From positions 1-59,219 of the forward strand of contig JAPPEG010000297.1 in the NCBI GenBank assembly GCA_028875345.1: a stretch of 59,219 nt of DNA. The letters are read 5' to 3'. Positions 1,337 to 17,590 of this stretch are shown here, piece after piece (position 1 is the first letter of the stretch; every line of letters starts with the position of its first letter). The notes under the pieces are model-generated. The model worked only from the letters and a program-made list of their open reading frames with translations, searched no databases and was not told where the DNA came from. The translations under genes were made by a program, and so were the position numbers. The DNA comes from Gemmatimonadota bacterium (GTDB taxonomy: Bacteria > Latescibacterota > UBA2968 > UBA8231).

Positions 1337-2844
1337 CGCTTGCTCCATTGCACGGTGAAGACGGCGATGCCCAGCACGATGCTCACCAGCAAGATCACCA
1401 ACCCGGTGATGCCCCAAAACGAGCCATCGCTCTTGATGTTTATGTTGACGGTGCGCTCGACCGACTCGACCCACTGCCCCTTGTGTTGAGTGCTGGCGCT
1501 GGTCTTGACTTCGTAGCGTCCTATTTCGGCGCTGTCGATGGGCCGCACGGTCAGCTTGGCTTCTATTTCTTCGCGCGGTGAGATATGGGCGATTTCCTGC
1601 GGCTCAAAGGAGACATTCCAGCCGGGCGGCGACAGGGCTTGCAGGCGGATGTCGAGCAATTCAACCGTGCCGAGGTTGCGCAAATGCCAAACGGACTGCG
1701 ACTCGCCTTCGCCATTGACTGAGAGGTCGAGGTTGAGGGTGGTCAGTTCCAATTCGGCCCGGCCCGTGGGCACTAGTTGCAGTTGCTCATAGCCAATGCC
1801 CATAGCTTGCAAGCGCTCTGGATCGGCGGCGGCCAATACCTCGGCATCCACGGTCTTTGGCTCGTAGGCCAGCACCGAAAAAATTAGCGGCTGATCCACC
1901 GTGAAACTCTCGTCTTGTTCGGGGACGTACACGTTAAGTATGAGCGAGTCGCTGGAGTGGTCGCGGGAAAAGCGCAGCCGCGACAGGTTGCGGCCTCCGC
2001 TCTCGAACTCATAGCGGAAGTCGTCCGGCAGTCCGTGCGCCATGAGCTGGAAAATCTTTTCGTCTTCGGCCAGCCGCTCTAGGTGTAGCTCGTACGCCAC
2101 CGAGTTGCCCAAAGGGCCTTCTTGGGAAAACTGCGTGGCGTATACGCGCACTACGTCGCGAGCCGAAGCCTTTTCTAGGTGAATGACGTGGTCGTCCGTG
2201 CGGTTGAGGTACTGGAGCTGTACCGTGAGATCCTCGACCTCGGGACGCTGCAAGCCGACCTCGACTTCGACTTCCTCGCCGAGGGCCAGCACCGGGATGT
2301 GGACTTGGTAGGGCCGGCCGACCATGACGTGGTCGGCGAGAATGGTAGCGAAGATGTTGTTCACCTGCAACAGGGAGGCGGCGTCTTGGTCGAGGCCGTT
2401 GATCTCGTAGCGTCGGCGGGCCTGATCGACCATTTGCGCCAAGTTGAGATCGGAGTCGTTGCGCAGGGTGAGCCGCACGCGGACCTTGTCGCCCTCGACG
2501 CCGTATTTTTGGCCATTGACGACCGTCAGGTGCGTGGCGTCGGCCAGCGAGTTGAGGAAGGCGCGCTGGAGGTTTAGGTCGGCCCGTTGCCGCTCTTGGC
2601 GGGCGCGCTCGTAGCCCTCGCGGGTCATACGTAGCTCTTGGCCGGTGACCACGCCGCGCTCCTTGAGGCCGATCATCTGCTCGTACTCGATTTCGACCTC
2701 GGCCTCACGCGCTTTGGCCTGCTCTAGAATTAAGTGAGCTTCTTGGAGGTCGAGCAGGATGCGCTGCTGTTCTTTAGTCAAGTTTTCGGCTTGGGCCACG
2801 AGGGCGCATAGCAGCAGTCCGAAGATATAGAAGATTGAAGACAT
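1333..2844 (-). CDS. Secreted, C-terminally membrane-anchored protein with coiled coil and NEW3-like domain
   Basis: 503 residues. A signal peptide (about 1-19, cleavage after AQA) is followed by a heptad-rich coiled coil (about 22-95) and several beta-sandwich segments. The segment before the end (around PPGWNVSFEP) resembles the NPCBM-associated NEW3/COG1470 fold of large extracytoplasmic proteins. One transmembrane helix (about 478-498) and a short basic tail (WSKR) close the chain. The bulk is therefore predicted to be periplasmic, anchored at its C-terminus. It is the first gene of sigma-54 operon A; the SD AAAGGAGG sits just upstream of the ATG. It may be an accessory or adaptor subunit of the exporter formed with the overlapping TolC-like gene. 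That role is inferred from context; the domain call is moderate. Confidence 0.75.
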   Translation of the reverse strand: MSSIFYIFGLLLCALVAQAENLTKEQQRILLDLQEAHLILEQAKAREAEVEIEYEQMIGLKERGVVTGQELRMTREGYERARQERQRADLNLQRAFLNSLADATHLTVVNGQKYGVEGDKVRVRLTLRNDSDLNLAQMVDQARRRYEINGLDQDAASLLQVNNIFATILADHVMVGRPYQVHIPVLALGEEVEVEVGLQRPEVEDLTVQLQYLNRTDDHVIHLEKASARDVVRVYATQFSQEGPLGNSVAYELHLERLAEDEKIFQLMAHGLPDDFRYEFESGGRNLSRLRFSRDHSSDSLILNVYVPEQDESFTVDQPLIFSVLAYEPKTVDAEVLAAADPERLQAMGIGYEQLQLVPTGRAELELTTLNLDLSVNGEGESQSVWHLRNLGTVELLDIRLQALSPPGWNVSFEPQEIAHISPREEIEAKLTVRPIDSAEIGRYEVKTSASTQHKGQWVESVERTVNINIKSDGSFWGITGLVILLVSIVLGIAVFTVQWSKR

Positions 2845-2916: not shown

Positions 2917-2932
2917 GCAATTATCGTGCCAA
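2917..2932 (-). promoter_or_regulatory. Sigma-54 promoter A
   Basis: The minus strand reads TTGGCACGATAATTGC. It matches the -24/-12 consensus TGGCACG-N4-TTGC exactly, with GG and GC ten bases apart. The start site would lie near 2905, giving a leader of about 60 nt to the NEW3-type gene. A degenerate copy of the -24 half (TTGGCGCGATAATCAT) lies exactly 30 bp upstream at 2947-2962. The AT-rich stretch at about 2968-3012 is a candidate bending (IHF-like) region. Confidence 0.88.
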
Positions 2933-3076: not shown

Positions 3077-3136
3077 TGCGCGAATACATCGCACAAGTGC
3101 GTCGAATTGTCGCTTTTAGTGCGCCTAAACATCGCA
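3077..3136 (-). promoter_or_regulatory. Triple activator-site array A
   Basis: Three 17-bp sites lie at 3077-3093 (TGCGCGAATACATCGCA), 3098-3114 (TGCGTCGAATTGTCGCT) and 3120-3136 (TGCGCCTAAACATCGCA). They are spaced 21 and 22 bp, so all lie on one face of the helix. They start about 147 bp upstream of the -24 element. The same array occurs before operons B and C. They are probable enhancers for the NtrC-type regulator at 14043-15449; that assignment is inferred. Confidence 0.82.
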
Positions 3137-3239: not shown

Positions 3240-4244
3240 TTAAGCGGCCATAGCCCTAATGACCGCTTGGCTCTGCATCTCCATACCGAGCTGTCTAAAC
3301 AGGCGCAACGCCGTCACCCATTCGTTCAACGCCCGCTGCTTGTCGCCGTCCTGCCGTGCGTACAGATTGCCCAAGGACACGTAGTTGAAAGCCTGCATCC
3401 TCGCGTTTCCTAGCTGTCGGCACAGATCCATAGAAGCCTGTATATGTCGTTGCGCCATCGCTAGGTCGCCGGTGGTCATGTAGAGATCTGCTAGCAGGGT
3501 CGCCATGCCACAGCGGCCTTGAGCATGACCTTGCGTCACGTAGATGCCCAGAGCTTCGTTGCCGCTGCTCAAGGCGCGTTCCAGATGGCCTAAGTCGCGG
3601 CAGACCGAAGCGATGGACCCGAGTTGTAGGGCTACTTCGAGGGGCGTCCCTTGCTGCTGGGCCGCCGCTAGTCCCGCAGTAAAATGTCGCAGGGCCTGCT
3701 CGGGATCGCTACGGCGCAGAGCCAGTTGTCCCAAGCTGTTGAGCAGGTTGCCTGGCACGTCGTCGTCATAGAGGTCTCGGCTGCGATGGAGCCACTGTTG
3801 AGCTTCTGCCAAGTCGTTCTGCTGCATGTAGAGATTGCCCATGTTGTTGGCTATCTTGGCTGCGAGGGCGGCATCGCCTCCTTCTTGGGCGTGCTGTATG
3901 GACTTGCGGTAGTACGCGGTAGCTTCGTCAAAGCGAGATTGGCTTTGTTTGATGAAGCCCACGTTGCCTTCGGCCTCGGCTAAATCGCGTAGGGAGCGGC
4001 CCGGCGAGCAGGCGGCCAATGCCTCTTGGAAGTACTGTAGCGATCCGTCGAGGTCGCCAGCGATCTCGCAATGGTGGCCGAGCTGGGTGCAAGCTGCAAA
4101 AAGCCCCTTTTGGTATTCCTCGGCGCGAAAGAGTCGACGCGCTATTTGGTAGTGGGTGGCCGCTTGCTCGTGCTGCCCTTTTTCTCGGCAGGTATTACCC
4201 CATTCGAGCTGTGTCCACGCCTTGGTTGTTTTTGGCGGATTCAT
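3240..4244 (-). CDS. Cytoplasmic TPR-repeat protein
   Basis: 334 residues with no signal peptide or membrane segment. About seven tetratricopeptide units run through the chain (for example around EAEGNVGFIKQ, ANNMGNLYMQ and FNYVSLGNLYA). TPR arrays are protein-binding scaffolds; no enzymatic domain is visible. The gene is last in operon B, just after the 63-codon ORF, with an SD (AAGGAGG) before the ATG, and is followed by a hairpin terminator. Its job in the peptide system is unknown; docking of a precursor or of transporter components is possible but only inferred. Confidence 0.85.
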   Translation of the reverse strand: MNPPKTTKAWTQLEWGNTCREKGQHEQAATHYQIARRLFRAEEYQKGLFAACTQLGHHCEIAGDLDGSLQYFQEALAACSPGRSLRDLAEAEGNVGFIKQSQSRFDEATAYYRKSIQHAQEGGDAALAAKIANNMGNLYMQQNDLAEAQQWLHRSRDLYDDDVPGNLLNSLGQLALRRSDPEQALRHFTAGLAAAQQQGTPLEVALQLGSIASVCRDLGHLERALSSGNEALGIYVTQGHAQGRCGMATLLADLYMTTGDLAMAQRHIQASMDLCRQLGNARMQAFNYVSLGNLYARQDGDKQRALNEWVTALRLFRQLGMEMQSQAVIRAMAA

Positions 4245-4254
4245 GGTAGCCTCC

Positions 4255-4446
4255 TTATCTCGTCAGTGCGAGTACGGGTATAACTACTTGCTCTGCACCG
4301 ATTTGTACCTCTATCCCACAGTTCAGCGTACCAGCGGGGAAATCGCTCGTATTGCGGATCTGGACGACTAAGCTGTTGTCCGCTTCCCGTTGGTGTTCGA
4401 TGTCCAGCTTTTTATTCCGTTTTAGACAATGCTGGCACGCAGCCAT
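4255..4446 (-). CDS. Small 63-codon ORF resembling a fragment of the NEW3-type protein
   Basis: The ORF overlaps the end of the ABC permease by 25 nt and ends 10 bp before the TPR gene. The product has a CxxC near the N-terminus (CQHC) and two beta-strand-like segments. IRNTSDFPAG and VIPVLAL echo LRNDSDLNL and HIPVLAL in the 503-residue NEW3-type protein at 1333-2844. It may be a real small protein or a decayed remnant of a paralogue. No function is assigned. Confidence 0.4.
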   Translation of the reverse strand: MAACQHCLKRNKKLDIEHQREADNSLVVQIRNTSDFPAGTLNCGIEVQIGAEQVVIPVLALTR

Positions 4447-5861
4447 GAGCGATAGGCCAGCATGTACGTGAGCGTAGCGAAGAAGAATAAGCCGATCACA
4501 TCGACGACCGCGTGCCGCAGCAAGGTCGTCGCCGACATGTTCTCGGTGAAGACCGGCAGGGTATCGGGGTCAATTTTCTGCCGCGATAGCCCTTGGGCGA
4601 TGTGGATGTGCATGCTTTTGGGATCGTCGCGGTCGAGGTTGAGCATGGTCTGCTCGAATTGCTGGACGTAAGTGCGCGCCTGCTCGACAAAGCTGCGGTG
4701 GCGCGCCAGCCCAGTGCCAGCGAAGGCCTCCATGCCGTACTGGAAGCAGCCCGTTGGCGACAGGCGCACGATGTGGCGGGCTTTTTCGACCTCGCCGAGG
4801 CTGTAGGCCAAAAACTCGTCTTCCCGATTTTGGATGACCCGACGATTGGCGTGGTCGTAGTCGGCGAACTGGCGCAATTTTTCGGGGTTTCTCAGATCGC
4901 GCCTCCGCGCACTGTTCCTATATTGAGCAATTTTATCTTTTTCTGGAGTTTGGAACTCCCACTCCATTACAACTGCGTCCCCGAATTCACGGACCACCAC
5001 GCGGGAGGCCAGTGCGCCGCCAGCCGATGGCCAGAGCAGCACCCCGCAGGTCCACAGCAACAGCACGCCCACCAAACTGGAGCGCGTGGTGCTGCTCCGT
5101 ATCGACACCCACAGCCCCAACCCGACAAAGCAAGCTAGATACAGCAGGGCTAAGCCGACCATGCCGATCAAGCGCCCGGCCTCGACGAGGCCCAAGTTTA
5201 CCTGCGAGAGTGCGATGACGATGAGCAAGTTGACGATGATGGCGAGGCTCAACACAATCGCGAGGGCCAGCATCGCACCGAGGAACTTGCCCAGCAGCAG
5301 GGTGTGCCGCGGCAGGCTCTGGGCCATGACCAGTTTGAGGGTGCCGCGCTCTTTTTCGCCGATGAAGGCGTCAAAGGTGAACAACAAGGCCATGAGGCTG
5401 AGCAGGCCGCCGATGATAAAGACCCAGTCGATGGCTCGGCTCTGCATCAGTTGGCTGGCCTTGGGTGCCCAGATACCCTCGATGTCCCAATAGATGAGTG
5501 GAAAGGGATCGTAGAACCAGGTGCCGTTGTACTGAAATTTCCAACTCGGCGTCCAGAGGTGCTCGGGCAGGGCGTCGTTGGCACCAACGGCGCAGAACAT
5601 GAGGGGGCTGGGTTTTTTGTAGATATAGTCCTGCCCCCCGTGGACGATCAGCTTCCACAATCCCGTTTGGGCGTGGCTGCGGCCGATTTCTTGCTCGGCT
5701 TGAACCTGTTCGAGATAGTGGTCGCGCCGGAACTCGTACGAGCCGCCGACAAAGCCGAGGGCGTTGAGCACCATCAGCCCTACGACCAGCACGAGAGCCA
5801 AGCCGAAGCGCAGGCTGATGAGGTGATCGATCAGTTCTCGTTTTACAATGGCTGCTAGCAT
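4422..5861 (-). CDS. ABC-2 type transporter permease with large extracytoplasmic loop (DUF3526-like)
   Basis: 479 residues. One N-terminal helix (about 17-38) is followed by a loop of about 105 residues, then five membrane helices (about 145-285), a second large loop (about 290-445) and a last helix. The conserved cytoplasmic signature GEKERGTLKLV after helix 2 marks the ABC-2 family, as in NosY and DUF3526 permeases. The SD AAGGAGG is well placed before the ATG at 5861. It is paralogous to the permease at 8457-10031 (compare GEKEDGTLRLM). It is fourth in operon B after the peptide and the two secreted proteins. No ABC ATPase is encoded in the window, so the partner ATPase must lie elsewhere, probably left of position 1. 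Confidence 0.88.
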   Translation of the reverse strand: MLAAIVKRELIDHLISLRFGLALVLVVGLMVLNALGFVGGSYEFRRDHYLEQVQAEQEIGRSHAQTGLWKLIVHGGQDYIYKKPSPLMFCAVGANDALPEHLWTPSWKFQYNGTWFYDPFPLIYWDIEGIWAPKASQLMQSRAIDWVFIIGGLLSLMALLFTFDAFIGEKERGTLKLVMAQSLPRHTLLLGKFLGAMLALAIVLSLAIIVNLLIVIALSQVNLGLVEAGRLIGMVGLALLYLACFVGLGLWVSIRSSTTRSSLVGVLLLWTCGVLLWPSAGGALASRVVVREFGDAVVMEWEFQTPEKDKIAQYRNSARRRDLRNPEKLRQFADYDHANRRVIQNREDEFLAYSLGEVEKARHIVRLSPTGCFQYGMEAFAGTGLARHRSFVEQARTYVQQFEQTMLNLDRDDPKSMHIHIAQGLSRQKIDPDTLPVFTENMSATTLLRHAVVDVIGLFFFATLTYMLAYRSWLRASIV

Positions 5862-5900: not shown

Positions 5901-6758
5901 TTATATGAGGTTGAAGAGAAAGTTCTGCGGTACGCCGCCGCTGAAATATGCCTCTACATGGCGCCACATGGCCCGCTGTGGATCCCAGACCAGCCGGAAG
6001 AAGGACGGGGTGCGCCCCTGCCACGGCCAAGGGGAGACCCCGGCCGGCTCTTCGACGATGAACATGATGTCGGCGAAAATCAACGACTCGCCTGCCTGTA
6101 GAGCTTCCTCTACCTCGTCGTGTAGTTTGGGACGAAAATTCAAGGTAGCCTTGGGGATCATGCCGTGTGTCTGGAGATAGAAAGCATAGCTATCGTACGC
6201 CTCCTGCATTTCGAATACCTTGAACGCGCTGTCGAAAAAGGACACGTTCTCGAAAAAGTAATCGCGCTTCGCCATGTCGAGTATTGCTCTGTGCCCGGAT
6301 GCAAACATGGCAAAGGGCGTATCGCCGATGGGGGCGTCTTTGTTAGCGAGAAACTCTTTCAGGAACTCTATCCCGTCTGGGTTATTAACGCCCTCGCGGA
6401 GGTAAAACGCGGCGGCGAGGCTGTCGCTACCCGAAGCCGAAAAGACGACTAAGAATTCATAGAGCCAATCGCGCAATGCGGCTTCTTGCGCCAGGTCAAT
6501 GGGAGCACCCAGCTCGACGGGGATCGCCTCGACCGCCTGCCGCAATTCGGCCCCGGCCTCGACCTTCATCATCTCCTGACCGTGAATGTAGTCGTAGAAA
6601 ATTTGCAGGCTGTCGGGGTGGGATGAAAAGCCGCCGTAGTGGGACTTAGGAGGCGCGGCCGTAAGGCTGGAGACGCCTTCCTGTTCTACGCACGCAGCCT
6701 GGGCGAACCAAACAGCGATCAGGGCGAAATATAGGACGCGAATGGATAAGGTTTTCAT
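5901..6758 (-). CDS. Secreted protein of unknown family, paralogue 2
   Basis: 285 residues with a signal peptide (about 1-21). The cleavage region reads AQAAC, which could also be a weak lipobox. The mature part is largely helical, with the conserved blocks DSLAAAFYLREGVNNP, VSFFDSA, HGMIP and IFADIMFIVEEP, ending in an aromatic, membrane-free tail. These blocks are shared with the adjacent 278-residue protein (6801-7637), so the pair arose by tandem duplication. I do not recognise the family. Its position, after the cysteine-rich peptide and before an ABC permease in a sigma-54 operon, suggests an extracytoplasmic partner of the peptide, such as an immunity, processing or binding protein. 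That is inference. Confidence 0.8.
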   Translation of the reverse strand: MKTLSIRVLYFALIAVWFAQAACVEQEGVSSLTAAPPKSHYGGFSSHPDSLQIFYDYIHGQEMMKVEAGAELRQAVEAIPVELGAPIDLAQEAALRDWLYEFLVVFSASGSDSLAAAFYLREGVNNPDGIEFLKEFLANKDAPIGDTPFAMFASGHRAILDMAKRDYFFENVSFFDSAFKVFEMQEAYDSYAFYLQTHGMIPKATLNFRPKLHDEVEEALQAGESLIFADIMFIVEEPAGVSPWPWQGRTPSFFRLVWDPQRAMWRHVEAYFSGGVPQNFLFNLI

Positions 6759-6800: not shown

Positions 6801-7637
6801 CTAGATGGAACTGAACAGAAAATACGGCGTCCCGATGCAGTAAACGATCTCTACATGGCGCCACATAGCCTTGTCTTGATCCCAAGCCATGCGGAAGAAA
6901 AACGGGGTGCGCGCCGCTCCCTCAAAGGGGGCGAACTCCTCGGGCTCTTCGACGATGAACATGACCTCGACAAAGGTCTGCTGTTTGCCCGCTTGGAGGT
7001 GCTCTTGAACCTCGCTCTTCATTTTGGAGTGGCTGCCCGATACGGCCGCAGGTGGGATCATGCCGCGCTCCATAAGGGACCCGATATAAGGGCTAGGCTC
7101 GGTCTTCCTCTCGGACACCTCAAGCGCGCTGTCGAAAAAGGATACCTTGCCGAAGTAGTAATCGTATTCACGCTCGTCGAGGAGTTGCTGGTGTCCCGCC
7201 TTGAGGATATCAAAAGGAGTCTCGCCTTTTAGGAGGTCCTTGCTTGCAAGCTGGTTTTTTAACTTCTCTATTGCTTCGGGGTTATTGACGCCCTCGCGGA
7301 GGTAAAAGGCGGCCGCGAGGCTGTCACTACTCGAAACCGAAAAGGCGACTAAGAGATCGTAGAGCCAGGTGCGCAGGTCGGCTTCTTGCGCGGGAGTGAT
7401 AGGAGTGTCCCCCTTGACGGGGATGGCCGCGATGGCCTGCTGCAACTCGTCGCCGGCCTCGACGTTTATCATCTCCAAGCTGTTGACATAGTCGTGAAAG
7501 GCTTGGAGAATGACTTGGAGGCTGTCCATGGGCATGGCGGGGTGCATGGAGTAGCCACCGTACTGGGCTTTTGGCTCGGCAGAGACGCTGGTGGCGGCGA
7601 ACCAAGCGGCGATTAGGGCGAAGGACAAAGTTTTCAT
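6801..7637 (-). CDS. Secreted protein of unknown family, paralogue 1
   Basis: 278 residues with a signal peptide (about 1-20, cleavage after VSA). It shares DSLAAAFYLREGVNNP, KVSFFDSALEV, RGMIP, VMFIVEEP and AMWRHVE with the next gene. This protein keeps one mature cysteine (YCIG). It lies between the six-cysteine peptide gene and its own paralogue, separated from the peptide gene by a strong hairpin (7670-7705) that may lower its expression relative to the peptide. No known domain is recognised. Confidence 0.8.
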   Translation of the reverse strand: MKTLSFALIAAWFAATSVSAEPKAQYGGYSMHPAMPMDSLQVILQAFHDYVNSLEMINVEAGDELQQAIAAIPVKGDTPITPAQEADLRTWLYDLLVAFSVSSSDSLAAAFYLREGVNNPEAIEKLKNQLASKDLLKGETPFDILKAGHQQLLDEREYDYYFGKVSFFDSALEVSERKTEPSPYIGSLMERGMIPPAAVSGSHSKMKSEVQEHLQAGKQQTFVEVMFIVEEPEEFAPFEGAARTPFFFRMAWDQDKAMWRHVEIVYCIGTPYFLFSSI

Positions 7638-7756: not shown

Positions 7757-7936
7757 TTAGGATAGGCATACCGGCTTATCGTCTTCGTCGCAATAGCACT
7801 CGACCTGAGTACCGATTGCGATGCACCAACCGTCATCGCAACTGGCAACGCATACAAGAGCCTCGGCCTTCTGCGGCAGGAAGCTGGCGATTAGGCCCGT
7901 GAGGCCAATGGTTAGGTTGACGATACGCTTTTTCAT
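7757..7936 (-). CDS. 59-residue secreted six-cysteine peptide
   Basis: ATG at 7934-7936, TAA at 7757-7759. The N-terminus is a clear Sec signal peptide: KKR, a hydrophobic stretch at about 5-20, and a cleavage motif AEA at 24-26. Cleavage there leaves a 33-residue acidic peptide with six cysteines at positions 29, 33, 38, 47, 49 and 57 (spacing C-x3-C-x4-C-x8-C-x1-C-x7-C) and an acidic patch DEDD. Six cysteines in 33 residues suggests three disulfides or a modified core. AEAL at the cleavage site loosely recalls the NVEALA peptides of Bacteroidetes, but I claim no homology. It is the first full gene after sigma-54 promoter B; the SD is weak (AAAGGAAA). It is likely the central product of the regulon; its role as signal, toxin or adhesin is unknown. 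Confidence 0.82.
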   Translation of the reverse strand: MKKRIVNLTIGLTGLIASFLPQKAEALVCVASCDDGWCIAIGTQVECYCDEDDKPVCLS

Positions 7937-8078: not shown

Positions 8079-8094
8079 GCAAGTATCGTGCCAA
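8079..8094 (-). promoter_or_regulatory. Sigma-54 promoter B
   Basis: The minus strand reads TTGGCACGATACTTGC, a full match to TGGCACG-N4-TTGC. The start site would be near 8067. A degenerate -24-like element again lies exactly 30 bp upstream (CC at 8121-8122), as at promoter A. The AT-rich tract at about 8135-8175 is shared with region A (TGTTAAATAAT). Confidence 0.88.
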
Positions 8095-8237: not shown

Positions 8238-8297
8238 TGCGACAATATATCGCACAAATGCGTCTAAACATCGCGTTTGATGCGCCCAAACATCGCA
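8238..8297 (-). promoter_or_regulatory. Triple activator-site array B
   Basis: Sites lie at 8238-8254 (TGCGACAATATATCGCA), 8259-8275 (TGCGTCTAAACATCGCG) and 8281-8297 (TGCGCCCAAACATCGCA), spaced 21 and 22 bp. They begin 146 bp upstream of the -24 element, almost exactly as in array A. Confidence 0.82.
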
Positions 8298-8456: not shown

Positions 8457-10031
8457 TCACTGGGCGGCGTAGCGGGCAAAGAGCCGATTGGCGAGGACAA
8501 AGAGCACTACCGCATAGAGTAACAGGGAGGTTAGATCCGGCAAGGAGTGGCTCAGACTCCTGGCGACTGTCCAGCCGCGTTCTTTAAACCTCGGCAGGTC
8601 GCGCAGGTCGGCGCGCCAGCCGGGGTCGTCGTTGAACCACTCGCGGGAGCTGAAGGCATCGCGCTCTTCGAGAAAGGTGATGATCTGCCCGCGATAGGCA
8701 CGGACTTGGTCGATAAAGTCGTAGTATTCGCGTCGGCTGGTGCCGGCGAAAGCACTAGCGGCTTGGGCGTATGCTCCGGCGGGTAGAAGACGCTGGAGAT
8801 AGTCATTCCAGCGTTGGATGCGGCGGGGGAAGTCTTCGATAAGGGGGGCTCTGGCATTCCAGGCGGGTTGGACGTATTTCAGGCGCAACCGCTCGCCGGT
8901 TCGGACGATGTCTTGGAACTCGGCGAGTGCGGGCGAATCGACGACATTGGATAGATAGATAGCGGGCCTCTGCTCACCGCCAAAGTACGCACCTGTTCCC
9001 CCCCAACGTGTTATAGTCCCGCGTCCCGGCGGTGGAGGGAGTAGCTGCTCGACCATATCTATGGGGGGGTACCTGGTCTGGCCTTGCGCCCGAGCGAGGT
9101 TGGTGGCCTCTTGATCGAACTCCTTCCACACTTGTGCGGCCTTGTGATCGGCTTGCTTGTGCTTTTCACCCATGTTGGCCTGTTCGTTGAGCAAGGCCGT
9201 GATACTGGCAGGTAGCACAATCGCCAGCAAGGCCCACGTAAACAGCGCGTAGATCAAGCTGGTCGCCGAGCGATGCGTCGCGCACGAGATGGCCAGTCCA
9301 ATCAGGTAGAACACTAGCAGATACAGCAGCGACAGCGCGAACAGTAGCGCCAATCGCACCCATTCGCCGATTCCGACCTCGATGTTTTCAGTGCCCAACA
9401 GCAAGATCGTCAGCAGGATAAAGCCCAAGGCCGTTGGAATGGCCAGGGTGGTCAGGCCAGCGAGGGTCTTGCCGACGAGGACTTGGGCGCGGCTGACGTT
9501 GGTCGTCAGCATCAGCCGCAGGGTGCCGTCCTCCTTCTCGCCGGAGACGGTCTCGCTGGCGATGAGAATGGCCAGCAGACAGAGCACGAGTTGAAAGATG
9601 TACACCATGTCGAAGGAGGCAAAGATGGCGAGGTAGGGATTGCCCGACTGGAAGGGGACAATCGCCTCGGTTTGGTAGGGCACTTCAAAGAGCAGAACCT
9701 TGACGGCCTGTCCCACCTCTTGTTCGACGCCTTGAGCGAATACCTCTAAGGGGCGCGGGGGCCGTAAGGCACGCGGAGCCGGGTTGGCATCGAATCCACC
9801 GCCGGCCGAACTGAAGTGGTCATGGCCTAGGGCCGAATAATAGGTGATTTCGTGGAACTTGTTGTCTTCAACGGCGCGCTGGGTGAGGTAGCTGGCCTTT
9901 TTCTGGACATAGGCTTGGCTGGTGAGCATCCCGTTGGCGATGATGAGCACCACGGCGAGGGCGGTGCACGCGGCGAAGCGCTGACTCAGCAGATGGCTGA
10001 GCATCTCTTTTTTGAACACAATGCCTATCAT
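8457..10031 (-). CDS. ABC-2 type transporter permease, paralogue of the operon B permease
   Basis: 524 residues. An N-terminal helix (about 17-40) precedes a long periplasmic loop. Five helices (about 165-315) carry the ABC-2 signature GEKEDGTLRLM, then a large loop leads to a C-terminal helix near residue 500. Layout and motifs match the permease at 4422-5861, so the two may form a heterodimer. It ends operon C, separated from the glycosyltransferase by a short hairpin at 10067-10088. The substrate is unknown. Co-regulation with a secreted cysteine-rich peptide and two glycosyltransferases makes a modified peptide or glycan plausible, but this is inference. Confidence 0.88.
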   Translation of the reverse strand: MIGIVFKKEMLSHLLSQRFAACTALAVVLIIANGMLTSQAYVQKKASYLTQRAVEDNKFHEITYYSALGHDHFSSAGGGFDANPAPRALRPPRPLEVFAQGVEQEVGQAVKVLLFEVPYQTEAIVPFQSGNPYLAIFASFDMVYIFQLVLCLLAILIASETVSGEKEDGTLRLMLTTNVSRAQVLVGKTLAGLTTLAIPTALGFILLTILLLGTENIEVGIGEWVRLALLFALSLLYLLVFYLIGLAISCATHRSATSLIYALFTWALLAIVLPASITALLNEQANMGEKHKQADHKAAQVWKEFDQEATNLARAQGQTRYPPIDMVEQLLPPPPGRGTITRWGGTGAYFGGEQRPAIYLSNVVDSPALAEFQDIVRTGERLRLKYVQPAWNARAPLIEDFPRRIQRWNDYLQRLLPAGAYAQAASAFAGTSRREYYDFIDQVRAYRGQIITFLEERDAFSSREWFNDDPGWRADLRDLPRFKERGWTVARSLSHSLPDLTSLLLYAVVLFVLANRLFARYAAQ

Positions 10032-10066
10032 GGCGTGGCTCCTATCGGTGGAAGGCGAATGGCTAC

Positions 10067-10088
10067 GGCGCAGATATAGGTCTGCGCC
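10067..10088 (-). terminator. Intergenic hairpin GGCGCAGA/TCTGCGCC
   Basis: A perfect 8-bp stem with a 6-base loop lies between the GT2 stop (10095) and the permease start (10031). No T-run follows on the minus strand. It may be an attenuator or an mRNA processing site. A near-identical stem occurs at 13974-13995. Confidence 0.5.
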
Positions 10089-10094
10089 CCGATT

Positions 10095-11150
10095 TTAGGC
10101 TGCCCGAGCGGGATGCCGCATCAGCAGGGCCTCGATCTCGTTCATCTCGTCGGATTGCACCTCGCTGTAACGCTCGTGAAAGTGCAACAGGTCGCGCAAG
10201 ACCAGTGCGTCAGGAATGAGCGGATCGGGCCAGATGCCAGCTCGCCACAGGTCGATCAACCGCAGCTTAGGGTCGCGGTTTTCCCGCACCATGTAGTCGA
10301 TGGCTTGGTCCCGTGTGCGCTGCTCGTCGGCGATTTTGCTCGGGTCGGAAAACTCGTGATAGTGGTACAAGTGATAAGTCAGGGCGTGGCGGGCAAAGCC
10401 CGGACTGACGCCGGCGCGCTGCAACCGATAGGCCAAATCCCACCCCTCGGAAAACGGAATGTCCGCCGCAAAGCCCCCCACCTCGCAGAAGGCTTGGCGC
10501 GGCACCGCGCTGTTGTGCGGATAAAAGCCGAGAAAGCCGACCGGCGAATCTGGATGCGCCGCGTATAGCTCCTCGACCTGATCCTGCATGGCCTTCAGCT
10601 CATCAAAGGGATAACCGCCTTCTTGGGCGCGGGCATGGATGCTGGCAAAGTCGTAGCGGATTTGGTCTTCGGTGATCAGCACCTGTTCCTGACTGATCAA
10701 TAGGAAGTCGGCCAAAACGCTCGGAGTGCGCTCTTCGTCAAAGATGGCTTGCTGCGGGTCGGGTAGATACTCGATGAGGGGCAGACTATACATGAAGCCG
10801 CACAAATAGCGCTGGCGTGCTCCACGCTCCCATTCTGCCCATAGGTGCTTCAACCAAGTTGGATGCGGCAAGGCATCGCCGTCGAGAAAGGCCACTAACG
10901 CGCCCCGCGCCTGTTCGACGCCGGCGTTGCGTGCCCGGCAGCGCCCCACATTGGGCCGCATGGGCACCACGTGTACATCTGGATATTCGGCGGCTAGCAT
11001 AGTATCCGTACCATCGGTGCAGCCATCATCAACGATGATGATCTCAAAACGCTCCTTGGGAAAATGCTGGCAAGCCAAGCCGCACAACACCAAGCGCAGG
11101 CGCGCTCGCTGGTTGTGGGTGGCAATGACGATGGAAATATCGATGCTCAT
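10095..11150 (-). CDS. GT2-family glycosyltransferase
   Basis: About 351 residues from the ATG at 11150. This start is chosen because an ideal SD (AAGGAGG) overlaps the stop of the upstream gene and sits five bases before it. An upstream in-frame ATG at 11174 would overlap that gene and lacks an SD. GT-A features are clear: SIVIATHNQ, the VDDGCTDGT donor loop, GRCRARNAG, and the metal-binding variant AFLDGDALPHP. A later GWDLAYRLQRAG matches the acceptor or catalytic region. No membrane segment is seen. GT2 enzymes transfer sugars to lipids, glycans or peptides; S-glycosylation of bacteriocin cysteines (SunS) is a known GT2 case, so the nearby six-cysteine peptide is a conceivable acceptor. 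Confidence 0.88.
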   Translation of the reverse strand: MSIDISIVIATHNQRARLRLVLCGLACQHFPKERFEIIIVDDGCTDGTDTMLAAEYPDVHVVPMRPNVGRCRARNAGVEQARGALVAFLDGDALPHPTWLKHLWAEWERGARQRYLCGFMYSLPLIEYLPDPQQAIFDEERTPSVLADFLLISQEQVLITEDQIRYDFASIHARAQEGGYPFDELKAMQDQVEELYAAHPDSPVGFLGFYPHNSAVPRQAFCEVGGFAADIPFSEGWDLAYRLQRAGVSPGFARHALTYHLYHYHEFSDPSKIADEQRTRDQAIDYMVRENRDPKLRLIDLWRAGIWPDPLIPDALVLRDLLHFHERYSEVQSDEMNEIEALLMRHPARAA

Positions 11151-11160
11151 GGGATCCTCC

Positions 11161-13671
11161 TTATTGGCATTCAAGGGTCAAATGGCATTCGTAGTGCAGT
11201 CCCTCGGGTATGGTCAGCAGCCGGTTGGGTTCGGTAGCAGCGTTGGGGTTGGGCACCATGAGCTGCGGAATGTCTAAGACCGACTTGGAGCACATCACCC
11301 GATGGCAGTCTATATGGCCAAAGTAGTAATCGAGAAACGCCTCACTGTGTCCCTCAATGCGCTGGCGCAGCAAGGGGTCGGCGACGTTGGCCGCGGTCAT
11401 GGCATGGCTGCCCAAGGCGATGCCGTGAAATTCTACCGGCAACCAGCCGGTCTCGCTCGTGTACAGCTCTACCCAAGTGTGGCCGAAGATGGGGTTGTCG
11501 TAGGTGCTAATGCCATAGCGATCCGGTCCTTGGGGTGCTACGGCTAAGCCTCCTGTCACCTCGCGGGCCGGAATGCCCAGCAGGCGGCACAGAGCCATAT
11601 AAGCGCGGCTCAGGGTAATGCAGTGGCCGCTGTCGTTGCTGAGCGTCATGGATGTGCTACATGCTAGGCATTGGCACCTTTCGTTGGTTTTCTGGAAGCG
11701 TTTGCTGCGCGCTAGGCTTTCGTATAGGCGGCGGGCCTTATCGACATCGCTCAGGCTCGGTTCGTCGAGATGCAAGTCGGCGAGAAAGTCGCGCACCAGA
11801 CGCGACTGGCCCAAAGAGTCTTCTACTTCGGTGTAATGGCGGTGCTCGCTAGGAGTCAGCGGCTCGGAAACGCGCCCGGCCATGGGCAGGTTATGCACCT
11901 CAACCTCGCAGGAATACGAGAATTCTAGCGTCCCATCGGCTGGCTCAATAGAGCAGGGGTAAGCGTAGAAGAAGCCGGCGTGGGGAGATAGATAAGGGCG
12001 CAATTCGCTTGGATTGCAGGCAGTAAGCTCGACGACCGGCTGCTGGGGCAGGTGCAGCGGATAGGGCAAAAACAGACGCGCCGCTCCAGTGGTCTCGCAA
12101 GAGGCTACATGCGCCTTGTAGGTGTACGTCAATCGGTAGCGCTGGCTAGACTGACGGGCCTCTAGCTTGCCATTGCAATGCGCGAGGAAAGGAGCCCGCA
12201 TCTGTTCCCGCATCCGATAATCTAGCTCGAAGAAGCGCGGCTCATGGTCGTAGAGCCAATTCCACGAGGTCCGCTTGTCGTACCACACCAGCCGTCCTCG
12301 CTGCACGTGAGGTATGCCCCGCTGGCGCGCCTCGGCGAGCAGGGCGCGGAGGGTCGGCAGGGAAGAGGTGCCGGTCAGGGGGTAGAGATGGCGGATGAAT
12401 TCGTCCTCTGACACCATGTTGTCCTGATCGAAAGAGTCGTTGTGGTAGATCAGTTTGTCGATTACATCGGCTGCGGTTTCCCCGCCTTTATAGGCGGACA
12501 TGTGCTTGGCAAAGGCAGCACAACGGGTGCTGAATTCTTCGTAGTGGTCGAATAGGTGGCGCACCTGATGGAGTATGTCGCTTGCTTTGGCAAAGCGCTG
12601 GCGCGGCAGTTTTAGGCCCAGCCCGAGGTCACGGATTCGGTTGAGGTGGTACTCTTGATCGAGGTGTTCGGGTGCTCCTATGATCGGCACGCCCTCGGTC
12701 AGCGCATGGTAGATGGAGCCAATGCCGCCAATGCCGATAAAGAGCGCGGCTTGGCGCATGGCCAAGCGGGCGGGCAGGTAATCGACGATCCGCACGTTGG
12801 CCGAGGGTGCTTCCACAGTATAGCGGCCCGCTGTGGTCACTAGCAGGCGGTAGGGCAAGGGGGCCAAGGCCCGCAGAACGGCTGGCAAAAAGCGATCATC
12901 CACTCCTGTGCTGCCAGCGTTGAAGTAAATGAGGGGCAGCGAGGTGTTCCAGCCCTCGTCGGATAGGGCCGCGGGCGGTTCATCGGCTATTGGCTCGTCT
13001 TCGATGAGTGGGCCGACGTAGTGATGGGAAGCAGGCACCGGCCCAGCGGACGGATGGAACTGAGGCACATCGGCCATCAGGAACGCGCTGTGGTGGGGCC
13101 GCTGCTCGGCGAAGTTCTGAGTTAGGTATTCGTCAAAGCAGCCGGCCTGCACCGGGAAGTAATCAGGCAGGCGGATGGCGCTGGAGTAAGTGGGCAGATT
13201 GTACGCTGCGTCTATAAAGGCGATGTCAATGCCCTCCAAGGCGGCCGTTAGCCGCAACGTGGGCCGCAAATCAGCGATGAGCAAGGAGGGCTGCACTTGG
13301 CGCACCAGAGCTTGCTCGGCTTCGACACAGCGCCTGATCCACTCGTCGTCATAGTACTCGTATGCGCCCCGCGCTAGGTGCTCGTCCATGCGCTGTTGCG
13401 GCATGGTTTCGACATCGTAGAGCGGGAAGCCTTCGTCCGCAATGCGCTGGGCGTGCGGTCCCCGCCCGGCGAAGATGACCTCGTACCCGCGCTGGCGCAG
13501 CGCACGCGCCACCACAAGCGGGCGAATCACGTGGGCCAAACTGTAGCCGTGAAAGAAGATGAGGAGGCGATGCTCGTTGCGCTGGAGGGCCGCATCTCGC
13601 TCCATTTTGGCCAGAAAGACGTTCCAAATGGTCAACCAATCCCACAGCTTTTTGTTGATTTGTGCTAGCAT
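11161..13671 (-). CDS. Fusion of a GT-B glycosyltransferase and a transglutaminase-like domain
   Basis: 836 residues. Residues about 35-420 look like a MurG/UGT-type GT-B glycosyltransferase. The N-terminal half contains FFHGYSLAHVIRPL, and the donor half contains the glycine-rich GIGGIGSIYHALTEGVP with APEHLDQEYHL. Residues about 440-600 carry no recognised domain. The C-terminus (about 640-790) is a transglutaminase-like cysteine-protease fold with a catalytic cysteine in SGHC and a histidine in GHTWVE. The third position, usually aspartate in VPFD, is glutamate here (LPVEF). Two cysteine clusters (CQCLAC) are unusual. It is the first gene of operon C. This GT plus transglutaminase architecture is not one I know. 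A processing or modifying role for the peptide is inferred. Confidence 0.82.
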   Translation of the reverse strand: MLAQINKKLWDWLTIWNVFLAKMERDAALQRNEHRLLIFFHGYSLAHVIRPLVVARALRQRGYEVIFAGRGPHAQRIADEGFPLYDVETMPQQRMDEHLARGAYEYYDDEWIRRCVEAEQALVRQVQPSLLIADLRPTLRLTAALEGIDIAFIDAAYNLPTYSSAIRLPDYFPVQAGCFDEYLTQNFAEQRPHHSAFLMADVPQFHPSAGPVPASHHYVGPLIEDEPIADEPPAALSDEGWNTSLPLIYFNAGSTGVDDRFLPAVLRALAPLPYRLLVTTAGRYTVEAPSANVRIVDYLPARLAMRQAALFIGIGGIGSIYHALTEGVPIIGAPEHLDQEYHLNRIRDLGLGLKLPRQRFAKASDILHQVRHLFDHYEEFSTRCAAFAKHMSAYKGGETAADVIDKLIYHNDSFDQDNMVSEDEFIRHLYPLTGTSSLPTLRALLAEARQRGIPHVQRGRLVWYDKRTSWNWLYDHEPRFFELDYRMREQMRAPFLAHCNGKLEARQSSQRYRLTYTYKAHVASCETTGAARLFLPYPLHLPQQPVVELTACNPSELRPYLSPHAGFFYAYPCSIEPADGTLEFSYSCEVEVHNLPMAGRVSEPLTPSEHRHYTEVEDSLGQSRLVRDFLADLHLDEPSLSDVDKARRLYESLARSKRFQKTNERCQCLACSTSMTLSNDSGHCITLSRAYMALCRLLGIPAREVTGGLAVAPQGPDRYGISTYDNPIFGHTWVELYTSETGWLPVEFHGIALGSHAMTAANVADPLLRQRIEGHSEAFLDYYFGHIDCHRVMCSKSVLDIPQLMVPNPNAATEPNRLLTIPEGLHYECHLTLECQ

Positions 13672-13725: not shown

Positions 13726-13741
13726 GCAAATGTCGTGCCCG
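13726..13741 (-). promoter_or_regulatory. Sigma-54 promoter C
   Basis: The minus strand reads CGGGCACGACATTTGC: GG and GC ten bases apart, differing from TGGCACG-N4-TTGC only at the first T. The start site would be near 13714, giving a leader of about 43 nt to the fusion gene. The 30-bp-upstream duplicate seen at A and B is not evident. Confidence 0.85.
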
Positions 13742-13864: not shown

Positions 13865-13923
13865 TGCGATAATATATCGCAGATATGCGTCTAATTATCG
13901 CATTGATGTGCTTAATCATCGCA
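13865..13923 (-). promoter_or_regulatory. Triple activator-site array C
   Basis: Sites lie at 13865-13881 (TGCGATAATATATCGCA, a near-perfect palindrome), 13886-13902 (TGCGTCTAATTATCGCA) and 13907-13923 (TGTGCTTAATCATCGCA), spaced 21 and 21 bp. They start about 126 bp upstream of the -24 element and lie about 120 bp past the 3' end of the regulator gene. Confidence 0.85.
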
Positions 13924-14042: not shown

Positions 14043-15449
14043 TCAGGGCCGGCGGCTGTATTGGCTCACGTCTATGTCGAACTGCTTGATCTTGCGCTGT
14101 AAGTTGCGCCGCCCCAACTGGATTTGCTGGGCGGCTTGGCTGATGTTGCCGCCCGTTTTCTCGAGGGCGTCGCGGATGAACTGCTCCTCAAAGCGCTGGC
14201 GCGCCGCGTGGAAGAGCGCGTCGGACCGATCTATGACTTCCTCCTCTACGGCTGCTGGCTCATCCTGACGGCCAGTATTCTCTACGATAGCCGTCGGCAG
14301 GTCCTCCACCTCGATTTCTCGTCCCTTGGCGAGGGCTATGGCGCGCATGATCGCGTTCTCCATTTCGCGCACATTACCCGGCCAATCGTAGGCTTCGAGA
14401 TACTCTAGGGCCTCTTTGCTGACCCCTTGGATCTGTTTGTCGAAGCGGTCGTTTAGGCGGTCGATAAAGAAGTGGCAGAACAAAGGAATGTCGCTCTTGC
14501 GCTGGCGCAGCGGCGGCACGTCGATGGTGACTGCGTTGAGCCGGTAGAACAAATCCTCGCGGAACTGACCCCCAGCCACGGCCTCCGTCAAATTCCGGTG
14601 GGTCGCGGAAAGGACACGCACATCCACCTTGTGGGTCTCGGTTGAGCCCACCATCTCGAATTCCCCTTCCTGCAACACGCGCAAAAGCCGGGTTTGCAGC
14701 CCCACCTCCATATCGCCGATTTCGTCGAGGAACAGAGTGCCGCCGTCGGCCTCCATAAAACGCCCTTTGCGGTCGCGCACTGCGCCGGTGAAAGAGCCTT
14801 TTACGTGCCCGAACAATTCGCTCTCTAGTACGCCTGGGTTCAAAGCCGCGCAGTTGCAACGTACAAAGGGACCGGCGGCGCGGTCGCTGGCGCGATGGAT
14901 GGCCGCAGCTACGAGTTCCTTGCCGGTGCCACTTTCGCCGCAGATTAGCACTGGCAGGGGAGTGGAGGCCACGTCTTGAACCAGCCGGTAGATTTGCCGC
15001 ATCTGCTCAGTCTCACCGACCATGCCCAACCCCGTGCCTTGTGTTTGGCGCAGACGCTCGTTCTCGGTCCGGAGCTTTTGCAGTTCGCGGATATTGCTGA
15101 TGTGGCTGAGGATTTCTTCGGCGTTAAAGGGCTTGGCCAGATACCCATACGCGCCGAGCTTGACGGTCTCTACCGCGCTTTGGAGATCCGCATACGCCGT
15201 TAAAATTAACACTTCCTCGGGCCGCTCGCGCACATTGAGCTGCCGCAGAAATTCGAGGCCACCCATCTCGGGCATGTGCAAGTCGAGCAGGATGATGTCA
15301 AAGGATTCTTCTCGCAGGAGCGCGAGGGCCTCGCGTGCGTCTGAGCGGGTTTCCACCGCGAAGCCTTCTCGCTGCAAGATGCTGCTCGACAGCTTCAGCA
15401 AGTCCTGTTCGTCGTCAATCATGAGTATTTTGCCGTCGTATTGGGCCAT
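14043..15449 (-). CDS. Sigma-54-dependent response regulator (NtrC family)
   Basis: 468 residues in the classical order. A receiver domain (about 1-120) has the acidic pair in IDDEQD and phospho-acceptor Asp in LLDLHMP. An AAA+ domain (about 145-380) has Walker A GESGTGKE and the sigma-54-contacting loop as GSFTGA, a variant of GAFTGA. A Fis-type helix-turn-helix lies at about 420-465 (GGNISQAAQQI). Its AAA+ activity would remodel closed sigma-54 polymerase. It follows the kinase gene with a 2-nt gap. Three sigma-54 promoters with identical triple operators lie within 13 kb, so it is their likely activator. The nearest array is 120 bp past its own stop. Confidence 0.95.
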   Translation of the reverse strand: MAQYDGKILMIDDEQDLLKLSSSILQREGFAVETRSDAREALALLREESFDIILLDLHMPEMGGLEFLRQLNVRERPEEVLILTAYADLQSAVETVKLGAYGYLAKPFNAEEILSHISNIRELQKLRTENERLRQTQGTGLGMVGETEQMRQIYRLVQDVASTPLPVLICGESGTGKELVAAAIHRASDRAAGPFVRCNCAALNPGVLESELFGHVKGSFTGAVRDRKGRFMEADGGTLFLDEIGDMEVGLQTRLLRVLQEGEFEMVGSTETHKVDVRVLSATHRNLTEAVAGGQFREDLFYRLNAVTIDVPPLRQRKSDIPLFCHFFIDRLNDRFDKQIQGVSKEALEYLEAYDWPGNVREMENAIMRAIALAKGREIEVEDLPTAIVENTGRQDEPAAVEEEVIDRSDALFHAARQRFEEQFIRDALEKTGGNISQAAQQIQLGRRNLQRKIKQFDIDVSQYSRRP

Positions 15450-15451
15450 AT

Positions 15452-17590
15452 CTATGCCTTTTCTTCTTTATTGTAAGGTAGCAAGAGCGCGAAGCAAGTG
15501 CCTTTGCCAACGCGGCTGGTAACGTCTATGTGGCCGCCGATTTCTCGTAGCTGGCGCTGGGCGATGGCCAGCCCCAAACCCGTGCCTTCTCCTGGGGCTT
15601 TGGTAGAAAAGAACGGCTCAAATATGCGGGAAAGTTGGGTTGGATCAATGCCAGTGCCAGTGTCGCAGATTTTTATTTCGACGCCTTCCTGTTCGGAGCG
15701 GGCACTCACCTGCAAGCGGCCACCTTGGGGCATGGCTTGGAAGGCGTTGCGGATGATGTTGAGGTAGATGTCCTTGAGCATGTCGCGGTTTACGAGCACG
15801 GCTGGCACCGGCTCAAACTGTCGCTCAATCGAGATGCCGAGGTGCTCGGCGTGTTTGGTCTCCAAGTCGAGCAACTGCCCCAATACTTCGGCTGCATCTA
15901 TCTGCTCGACTAGGTGCTGGGCCGGGCGGGCGAAGTCGAGCAGGCTGCCGACGCGATCGTTTATGCGGCGGATGGCCTCGCGCATCATGCGCAGGGTCTC
16001 GTCGCGCTCCTTTTCTTCTTCGGGACCCAATCGAGGCAGCAGGTCGCAAGTATTCTGCACAATGGCGAGGGGGTTTTTGATTTCGTGCGCTACGCCGGCG
16101 GCTACCTCCCCGAGCGCCGATAGTTTTTCGGCCTGCATGTAGTGCAGTTCAAGCAGATGCTGCTGAGTCCGGTCCTCGACGACTAGCAAGACCTTGCCGC
16201 TATGGCCGTGGCTCAACTCGGCCTTGTGCAGGTCCCAGTAACGCATAACGCCCTCGGTGTCCTCGATTGCCAAGTCATCCACGACTTGTAGATGCGGGTG
16301 GGCCTTTAGCCAAGCGCGTACTTGGGCTCCAGCGTGGGTCGCGCTCAGTTCGGCGTCCTGTTCCGGTAGCAGTAAGCTGGCCCACGCTTTGTTGCTCTGC
16401 ACGATGCGGTAGTCGGCGTCGAGTACGGCAATGGCGAGGGGATTGTCCTCAATCAGATGGCGCTGCAAGTCCAAGGTGCTTTCCAAGTCCCGCTGGCGCT
16501 CGGCCAGCGTTTGGTCCATCTCGACAAAAGCGTCAGCTAGTTCGCCGATCTCGTCGCGGCGCGTAACGGGCGTTCCTATGAGGGGATAGCCGTCCCGGCG
16601 ACGGCGCACAGCGTGCGTAAGCAAGACGAGAGGCGCGACGACTGAGCTGCGCGTCAGCCCGCCCAAAAGCAGTGCCCCTAGTGCAGAAAACGCGATGATC
16701 GCATAGATGGAGTACAGCACGACCGTGTACGGAGCATACGCCTCGTCTTCGCGCTGTTCAATGGCGACGATCCAGTCCCAGTCGCGCACGGGAGCAAAAC
16801 CCGAGACCCACTCGGTGCCCCCCACATCGCGCCACAAGAGAATTCCCGCCGGACCGCGCATGGCCTCTATATGCGGGTGGTGTAGCCACGTGTAGAAGGA
16901 CTGGCGCATGGGCCGCGCTAGATAGTGTCCATCGTCGGCGTGGAGCAAGGTCGCATAGCCGGTCCGACCGATGCGGATGAGATTTATTTTGCTCCAGACT
17001 CGGTGAAAGTCGAGGCGAGCTATCAGGGCTTGTTGGGGCGGCTGGCCTTCCCGTTCCACTGGCAGCGCGACAAAGAGCTTGGGCGTCTCCTTGAATTCTT
17101 CGATCAGGACGACGTATAGGCTGTTTGCTGCCATCTTCACCCAGGTTGCGTCCCAGTCGTAGGAAGCGGGTAGAGCAATCGCCGTGCTCGCGGCCTGTAT
17201 TTGGTTTTGGGCGTCTACTAGATAGAGCGTCTCCACTTCGCTGGATTCGAGTCCAGCCTCTTTGAGCAAAGTGTGCCAATCCTGCGGCTCGGTTCCCACA
17301 GTGCGTGCGAGGCCTTTCAAATCGGAGATAATCGGGGAAAAGATGTGGGCGATTTCCTCGGCCGTGCGGTGCGCCATTTCGCGGCGGCTGTCCAGCACGG
17401 CCTCTTCTATGGCATCGCGGGCCGTGTTCAACACGAAAAGATCGACTAACAACACGGGCACTAGTCCCAAGGCGAGGTAATAGCCCAGCAGGCGCAGCCA
17501 CAGCCGTTGCCTTTTACCGCGCCAGCCTTTAAGCCTCACGGCCCAAGTCTTCAGGCTTGAGATCATCTGTCGCATGTGCTGTGCAACCAC
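15452..17590 (-). CDS. Membrane sensor histidine kinase (NtrB-like) partner of the sigma-54 regulator
   Basis: 712 residues. TM1 (about 28-50) is followed by an extracytoplasmic Cache-like domain (about 55-285), TM2 (about 290-312), a HAMP linker, and a PAS domain (about 380-490). The HisKA box is AHEIKNP, and the HATPase domain has DTGTGIDP and the GEGTGLGLA loop. It should autophosphorylate in response to a periplasmic ligand and pass phosphate to the regulator encoded 2 bp downstream. The annotated start is a GTG with no good SD; ATGs at 17575 and 17566 are alternatives. Architecture resembles sensor kinases paired with NtrC-type regulators. The ligand is unknown; the secreted peptide or its receptor proteins are possible, by inference. 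Confidence 0.93.
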   Translation of the reverse strand: MVAQHMRQMISSLKTWAVRLKGWRGKRQRLWLRLLGYYLALGLVPVLLVDLFVLNTARDAIEEAVLDSRREMAHRTAEEIAHIFSPIISDLKGLARTVGTEPQDWHTLLKEAGLESSEVETLYLVDAQNQIQAASTAIALPASYDWDATWVKMAANSLYVVLIEEFKETPKLFVALPVEREGQPPQQALIARLDFHRVWSKINLIRIGRTGYATLLHADDGHYLARPMRQSFYTWLHHPHIEAMRGPAGILLWRDVGGTEWVSGFAPVRDWDWIVAIEQREDEAYAPYTVVLYSIYAIIAFSALGALLLGGLTRSSVVAPLVLLTHAVRRRRDGYPLIGTPVTRRDEIGELADAFVEMDQTLAERQRDLESTLDLQRHLIEDNPLAIAVLDADYRIVQSNKAWASLLLPEQDAELSATHAGAQVRAWLKAHPHLQVVDDLAIEDTEGVMRYWDLHKAELSHGHSGKVLLVVEDRTQQHLLELHYMQAEKLSALGEVAAGVAHEIKNPLAIVQNTCDLLPRLGPEEEKERDETLRMMREAIRRINDRVGSLLDFARPAQHLVEQIDAAEVLGQLLDLETKHAEHLGISIERQFEPVPAVLVNRDMLKDIYLNIIRNAFQAMPQGGRLQVSARSEQEGVEIKICDTGTGIDPTQLSRIFEPFFSTKAPGEGTGLGLAIAQRQLREIGGHIDVTSRVGKGTCFALLLPYNKEEKA

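Follow-up and report, generated by a model that had tools for sequence, protein, structure and literature searches.

A GT-B/transglutaminase-like fusion protein of one Latescibacterota family and its possible role in the tailoring of small secreted peptides

A protein of 836 amino acids that joins a GT-B glycosyltransferase half to a transglutaminase (TGase)-like half represents a fixed, multi-copy architecture of one family of Latescibacterota. It was studied in a DNA stretch of 59,219 nucleotides (the window; features are listed in Table 1), in which it precedes the gene of a second glycosyltransferase, of family GT2. We hypothesize that both proteins act in the cytoplasm as tailoring enzymes of a RiPP-like system of secreted peptides (glycopeptides) specific to this lineage, a reading that we hold to be about as likely as not.

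Domains, folds and catalytic residues of the fusion protein

The initial annotation had described the gene product as one chain of a GT-B and a transglutaminase-like domain, and this description was borne out by Pfam, AlphaFold and Foldseek, the coding strand being the minus strand. GT1-type C-terminal models of Pfam span residues 264–382 (EryCIII-like_C 286–375, 2.9e-9; UDPGT 264–370), and macrolide-type glycosyltransferase models of NCBIfam score far under their cut-offs (61.5 bits vs 260 for MGT). Transglut_core (PF01841) matches residues 640–747 (7.4e-13) with 49.2 bits against a curated cut-off of 23. A fold search of the C-terminal half, which had been set beforehand as a check, returned a TGase fold: modelled alone (pLDDT 89, pTM 0.88), this half is closest to 3isr, a putative cysteine protease (probability 1.00, E 8.6e-9), followed by TgpA and TglA and, more weakly, by transglutaminase 2 (TG2). 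The full-length model (pLDDT 81) reaches a pTM of only 0.56, so the relative placement of the two halves is uncertain; its GT-B half matches GT1 enzymes of the OleI/OleD, CalG and YjiC type with E values of about 1e-17. With the macrolide and natural-product enzymes OleD, CalG and YjiC the fusion shares the whole GT-B fold and a recognisable donor-binding motif, whereas identity is about 20% and the TGase half is an addition. Bacterial transglutaminase-like proteins of the COG1305 type (3isr, TgpA) display the same beta-sandwich and TGase core with conserved Cys and His; unlike them, all homologues of the fusion carry Glu at the Asp position and are always fused to a GT-B half.

Alignment of 21 homologous sequences displays identity at Cys684, His731, Glu735, Glu747 and His749, and Cys684-His731-Glu747 is the triad predicted from it for the transglutaminase-like half. 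The replacement of the usual Asp by Glu, which had been claimed earlier, is real, but it had been placed in the GHTWVE motif. Glu735 of this motif is the ordinary HxWvE glutamate after the catalytic His, and the canonical TGase of the source genome has THAWVE. Glu747 is the last Pfam-aligned residue of the fusion (profile position 107 of 108), and around the Asp position the canonical TGase has GFDPTN (ordinary TGase, THAWVECRLPELGWVGFDPTN) against PVEFHG in the fusion (GHTWVELYTSETGWLPVEFHG). The end of the Pfam alignment and the comparison with the canonical TGase therefore assign the Asp-to-Glu change to Glu747.

In the GT-B half, an alignment by hand with OleD puts H47 at what we take to be the position of the catalytic His of the GT1 family, and E335, D338 and Q339 were placed by sequence at the donor-binding motif (E-x-x-D-Q). 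H47 and this motif are kept in cluster types A to D (defined below), with Q339 changed to E in L007. Fusions of type E (L055, L056, L057) have lost H47, E335 and D338 and kept the TGase triad; their GT-B half may be inactive.

Chance or an assembly chimera as origin of the fusion is ruled out by intact homologues in many genomes and by a paralogue of the same architecture (about 50% identity) elsewhere in the source genome (G000:C297). Two variants were seen. At L046 (1606–4860), fusion and GT2 form a single frame of 1084 residues, in which the fusion part ends at residue 786; this frame is either a genuine triple fusion or due to misassembly. The closed genome G050, which also has intact copies, contains a decayed fusion gene with in-frame stops (G050:C1:229346-230148; L059 9359–10146).

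Distribution, GT2 partner and common regulation

Of 64 Latescibacterota genomes searched in full, 12 have the fusion, with as many as six matches in one genome; all 12 belong to the family-level group of the window. Scanning contigs from the genomes of 84,980 species, which reaches close relatives only, yielded 13 fusion loci, all from metagenome-assembled genomes. They are labelled Latescibacterota, except for two labelled Gemmatimonadota that match, by contig and position, genomes that group here with the family of the window. Searching with a profile built from the TGase half retrieves essentially only fusions. Stand-alone homologues of this half gave no strong match in the 64 genomes (two matches were weak and core-only), and plasmids gave only distant TGase-core matches with a query coverage of 25–43%. 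Neither a family with this domain order, for which the initial annotation had likewise known no example, nor a common fusion with an unrelated known role emerged from Pfam, NCBIfam, PDB and the open-licence literature, collections outside the phylum being covered for close relatives only. Open-licence papers yielded no description of the fusion or its peptides.

The GT2 gene lies directly downstream of the fusion in all 19 compared loci, its DxD motif is invariant in the alignment, and it occurs in exactly the 12 genomes that have the fusion. An alternative upstream TTG start (11174) would give an overlap of 14 bp with the fusion gene. This adjacency and a promoter box 55 bp before the ATG agree with the earlier view that the fusion heads a sigma-54-type operon together with a GT2 enzyme. 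One type A cluster (L066, 2809–4681) has a GT2 gene 92% identical, without a fusion gene ahead of it. PADLOC gave no match for fusion, GT2, peptide or c5, and a role in anti-phage defence was rejected. A short frame in the window (4255–4446) resembles a remnant of a DUF1573 gene, which is intact in L047 and L066.

Table 1. Features of the window discussed in the text, in the order of the minus strand
Feature	Position	Strand	Basis and remarks
Sensor histidine kinase with Cache, HAMP and PAS domains	15452..17590	-	Pfam
NtrC-type response regulator, probable activator of three promoters	14043..15449	-	Pfam Sigma54_activat 9.9e-70
Enhancer palindromes GCGAYNNTNNNNCGCA upstream of fusion promoter	13866..13901	-	Palindrome search
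Sigma-54-type promoter box of fusion operon, GGGCACGACATTTGC	13726..13740	-	Pattern search; one mismatch, 55 bp before ATG
Fusion protein, 836 aa, GT1-like GT-B half and transglutaminase-like half	11161..13671	-	Single open frame, Pfam, AlphaFold model, Foldseek
GT-B half, residues 1–411	12439..13671	-	Pfam, Foldseek, homologue alignment
Transglutaminase-like half, residues 412–836 (helical linker, beta-sandwich, TGase core)	11164..12438	-	Model and Foldseek
Cys684 (SGHC), predicted nucleophile	11620..11622	-	Same in 21/21
His731 (GHTWVE), predicted catalytic	11479..11481	-	Same in 21/21
Glu747 (PVEFH), usual Asp position of the triad	11431..11433	-	Same in 21/21; Pfam alignment
GT2-family glycosyltransferase, DxD invariant	10095..11150	-	Pfam 1.7e-24; directly downstream of fusion, 19/19 loci
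ABC-2 type permease, third gene of fusion operon	8457..10031	-	Pfam
Three enhancer palindromes upstream of peptide promoter	8239..8296	-	Palindrome search
Sigma-54-type promoter box of peptide operon	8079..8093	-	Pattern search; no mismatch
Precursor peptide of 59 aa, small and secreted, with signal-like leader and a core of six Cys; proposed substrate	7757..7936	-	Small-ORF census, locus comparison
c5 secreted protein, family unassigned, peptide operon	6801..7637	-	No Pfam match; repeated in related clusters
Second c5-type secreted protein, peptide operon	5901..6758	-	No Pfam match; repeated in related clusters
ABC-2 type permease, peptide operon	4422..5861	-	Pfam
TPR protein	3240..4244	-	TPR gene accompanies 17/19 fusion loci
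Palindromes upstream of box of exporter-like operon	3098-3135		Palindrome search
Sigma-54-type promoter box of exporter-like (NEW3/TolC) operon	2917..2931	-	Pattern search; no mismatch
Membrane protein with NEW3 domain	1333..2844	-	Domain match
Outer membrane efflux protein (TolC type), truncated by contig end	2..1414	-	In G050 followed by ABC ATPase

Sigma-54-type boxes alone do not exceed chance in the window (4 found vs 2.0 expected), and the pattern is uninformative if two mismatches are allowed. The palindrome GCGAYNNTNNNNCGCA occurs seven times vs 0.70 expected, a number reached in none of 100 shuffles, and all seven copies fall in three stretches upstream of the boxes of the fusion, peptide and NEW3/TolC operons. 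It recurs before most box-bearing operons of the type A cluster of G050, and the source genome encodes sigma-54. An NtrC-type regulator and a sensor kinase are encoded next to the fusion, and this regulator is the probable activator of the fusion, peptide and exporter-like promoters.

Precursor peptides and types of gene clusters

The sole Cys-rich secreted small ORF recovered by a census of the window encodes the peptide MKKRIVNLTIGLTGLIASFLPQKAEA-LVCVASCDDGWCIAIGTQVECYCDEDDKPVCLS. Of 16 fusion loci whose flanks are usable, 14 contain small secreted precursor peptides, at least one per locus (the window, L042 to L047, L049 to L052, L054, L056 and L060), with no peptide within the flanks of L055 and L057; L048, L053 and L058 were excluded because of too short flanks, and ORFs antisense to peptides were left out. 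None of the peptides has a match of value in Pfam. The "peptide" of the initial annotation hence corresponds to a whole family encoded near the enzyme, and its part as substrate is one that we infer from neighbourhood and co-regulation.

Mean identity of leaders vs cores is 0.89 vs 0.38 in type B, 0.69 vs 0.29 in type E and 0.60 vs 0.32 in type A, which is the RiPP trait of a conserved leader and a diversified core. The dN/dS of the leader is 0.08 (B) and 0.16 (E), and 0.57 in type A, there on 26 codons only. Conserved leaders in A, B and E and the low leader dN/dS in B and E argue for translated genes with diversified cores. Most peptides of these three types have 6, 8 or 10 cysteines, and most leaders end in signal-peptidase-like A-x-A sites. 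Type D cores are devoid of cysteine; in all 5 loci of this type with an intact upstream region the peptide gene precedes the fusion gene by 16–35 bp, in an operon-like arrangement (in L052, peptide, fusion and GT2 genes occupy 8515–12361). Processing as type IV pilins, considered because types B and E have a gene for an A24 peptidase, was rejected, as the leaders are by eye unlike prepilin sites.

Based on neighbouring genes, the loci were sorted into five types. Type A (window, L043, L060) has ABC-2 permeases and c5 proteins and, in G050, a TolC-type protein, a NEW3 membrane protein and an ABC ATPase. Type B (L042, L044, L045, L046) has thioredoxin-fold, FMN-binding, A24 peptidase and FG-GAP genes, the thioredoxin-fold genes adjoining the peptide gene. 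Type C (L047, L048) is characterized by c5, ABC-2 and DUF1573, type D (L049 to L054, L058) by sigma-54 activators with propellers and a histidine kinase, and type E (L055 to L057) in part by DUF4159 and FG-GAP genes. Fusion, GT2, usually a TPR protein, and a small peptide recur across the types, which share little else (A/C: ABC-2, c5; B/E: FG-GAP, thioredoxin; D: propeller regulators).

Many peptide genes of G050 are distant from any fusion (1.76, 3.26, 3.65 and 4.43 Mb). Arrays of Cys-rich peptides were observed at 495–533 kb, 1.76 Mb, 3.26 Mb, 3.65 Mb and 5.27–5.28 Mb of G050:C1 (L056, L064, L068, L069, L072, L073) and also in L070 and L074. In these arrays, of which a genome holds many copies, each small Cys-rich peptide gene lies beside a gene for an FG-GAP/FlgD_ig secreted protein, and the leaders are almost identical, with variable cores. 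Given arrays that lie megabases from fusions, one enzyme may act for more than one locus, or peptides and fusions may be associated only in part. Within peptide arrays of L042 (15632–16945), a DUF4159 protein has a TonB-like N-terminus (a short transmembrane stretch, then a Pro-rich part), and at L060 (3884–4024) a peptide leader runs into the end of a DUF1573 gene, a junction apparently created by a deletion.

The enzymes could instead act on larger secreted proteins (FG-GAP in types B and E, c5 in types A and C), modifying them or joining them to a glycan, the small peptides being separate, co-controlled products. Fusions of types A, B, C and E do have FG-GAP or c5 genes as neighbours, and many repeats of these genes occur in arrays; however, type D fusions have neither of them adjoining, just a small peptide and regulators, and we consider this explanation unlikely.

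Quite unlikely, in our view, is that the two glycosyltransferases make a surface polysaccharide or exopolysaccharide, on which the TGase half, in an auxiliary role, adds or trims a substituent made of an amino acid or a peptide. The best NCBIfam match of GT2 is an exopolysaccharide enzyme, under its cut-off, and its best PDB match is chondroitin synthase. Against this, the examined windows revealed no recognisable gene for a flippase, a polymerase, a priming transferase or sugar nucleotides, the GT-B half is closer to natural-product GT1 than to lipid-linked enzymes, and the recurrent precursor peptides would be left unexplained.

Proposed peptide-tailoring pathway and known systems

Tailoring of the peptides appears plausible because fusion, GT2 and peptide are common to cluster types with otherwise different neighbours, because peptide and enzyme of type D are arranged as one operon, and because those of type A share promoter and enhancer sequences. 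For this pathway we also infer in which order the steps occur and which reaction each half performs. The two-component pair would, via sigma-54, turn on three operons together, those of the tailoring enzymes, the precursor peptide and the exporter-like genes. GT2 and the GT-B half would add one or two sugars to the precursor, and the TGase-like half, via Cys684-His731-Glu747, would form or cleave an amide bond of this precursor by transamidation, deamidation or trimming. The peptide would then be exported via its signal-like leader, and Cys-rich peptides would be closed by disulfides.

Several observations count against peptide tailoring. Sec-like leaders imply that cytoplasmic modification must come before export, which is unusual for disulfide-rich peptides, and the Cys-free cores of type D leave no acceptor residue common to all. 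To these are added the peptide-free loci L055 and L057, the peptide genes distant from fusions, the GT2 gene of L066 without fusion, the loss of GT-B residues in type E, and the weak constraint on the type A leader.

The glycocins (sublancin, glycocin F, thermoglycocin; PMC12457901) are the known systems that work most like the one proposed for the fusion. They share a ribosomal precursor, a leader with a Cys-rich core and a co-encoded glycosyltransferase, and disulfides in the product are proposed here; a precursor of this kind near a glycosyltransferase is present in types A, B and E. Glycocins are further characterized by a sugar on Cys, Ser or Thr of the product. On the other hand, the present system has a signal-like leader, two glycosyltransferases, a TGase half, sigma-54 control and Cys-free cores in type D. 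In known glycocins, a C39 peptidase-transporter cleaves off the leader (PMC12457901). C39 peptidase (PF03412) had no match in the source genome, which is 87% complete, and the fusion system is therefore not classed with the glycocins.

The TGase-like B proteins of lasso peptides are cysteine enzymes of the TGase fold that act as leader peptidases on a ribosomal peptide. They differ from the fusion, which is joined to GT-B, has no recognised lasso cyclase and matches a different Pfam model (Transglut_core). That the TGase-like half might, by analogy with them, be a leader peptidase or maturation protease, the GT-B half mainly binding or glycosylating the substrate, is the most doubtful of the alternatives: its closest solved fold is the putative cysteine protease noted above and type E keeps the triad despite the loss of GT-B residues, but leaders ending in A-x-A need no cytoplasmic peptidase, and the examined neighbours included neither a recognisable lasso cyclase nor an enzyme of lanthipeptide type.

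Taking peptide tailoring further, we tentatively put forward, as possible though rather doubtful, a new RiPP-like glycopeptide class, jointly controlled through sigma-54, whose GT-B/transglutaminase fusion would have a Cys-His-Glu triad and link glycosylation with amide-bond chemistry on large sets of peptides with signal leaders. Latescibacterota in sponges have been noted as a prolific natural-product lineage (PMC9426513). If the hypothesis is correct, it would add an unreported enzyme architecture and a large peptide repertoire to an uncultured phylum, and it would make it possible to test directly whether a TGase fold is catalytic when Glu replaces Asp, and whether one enzyme can join glycosylation and transamidation.
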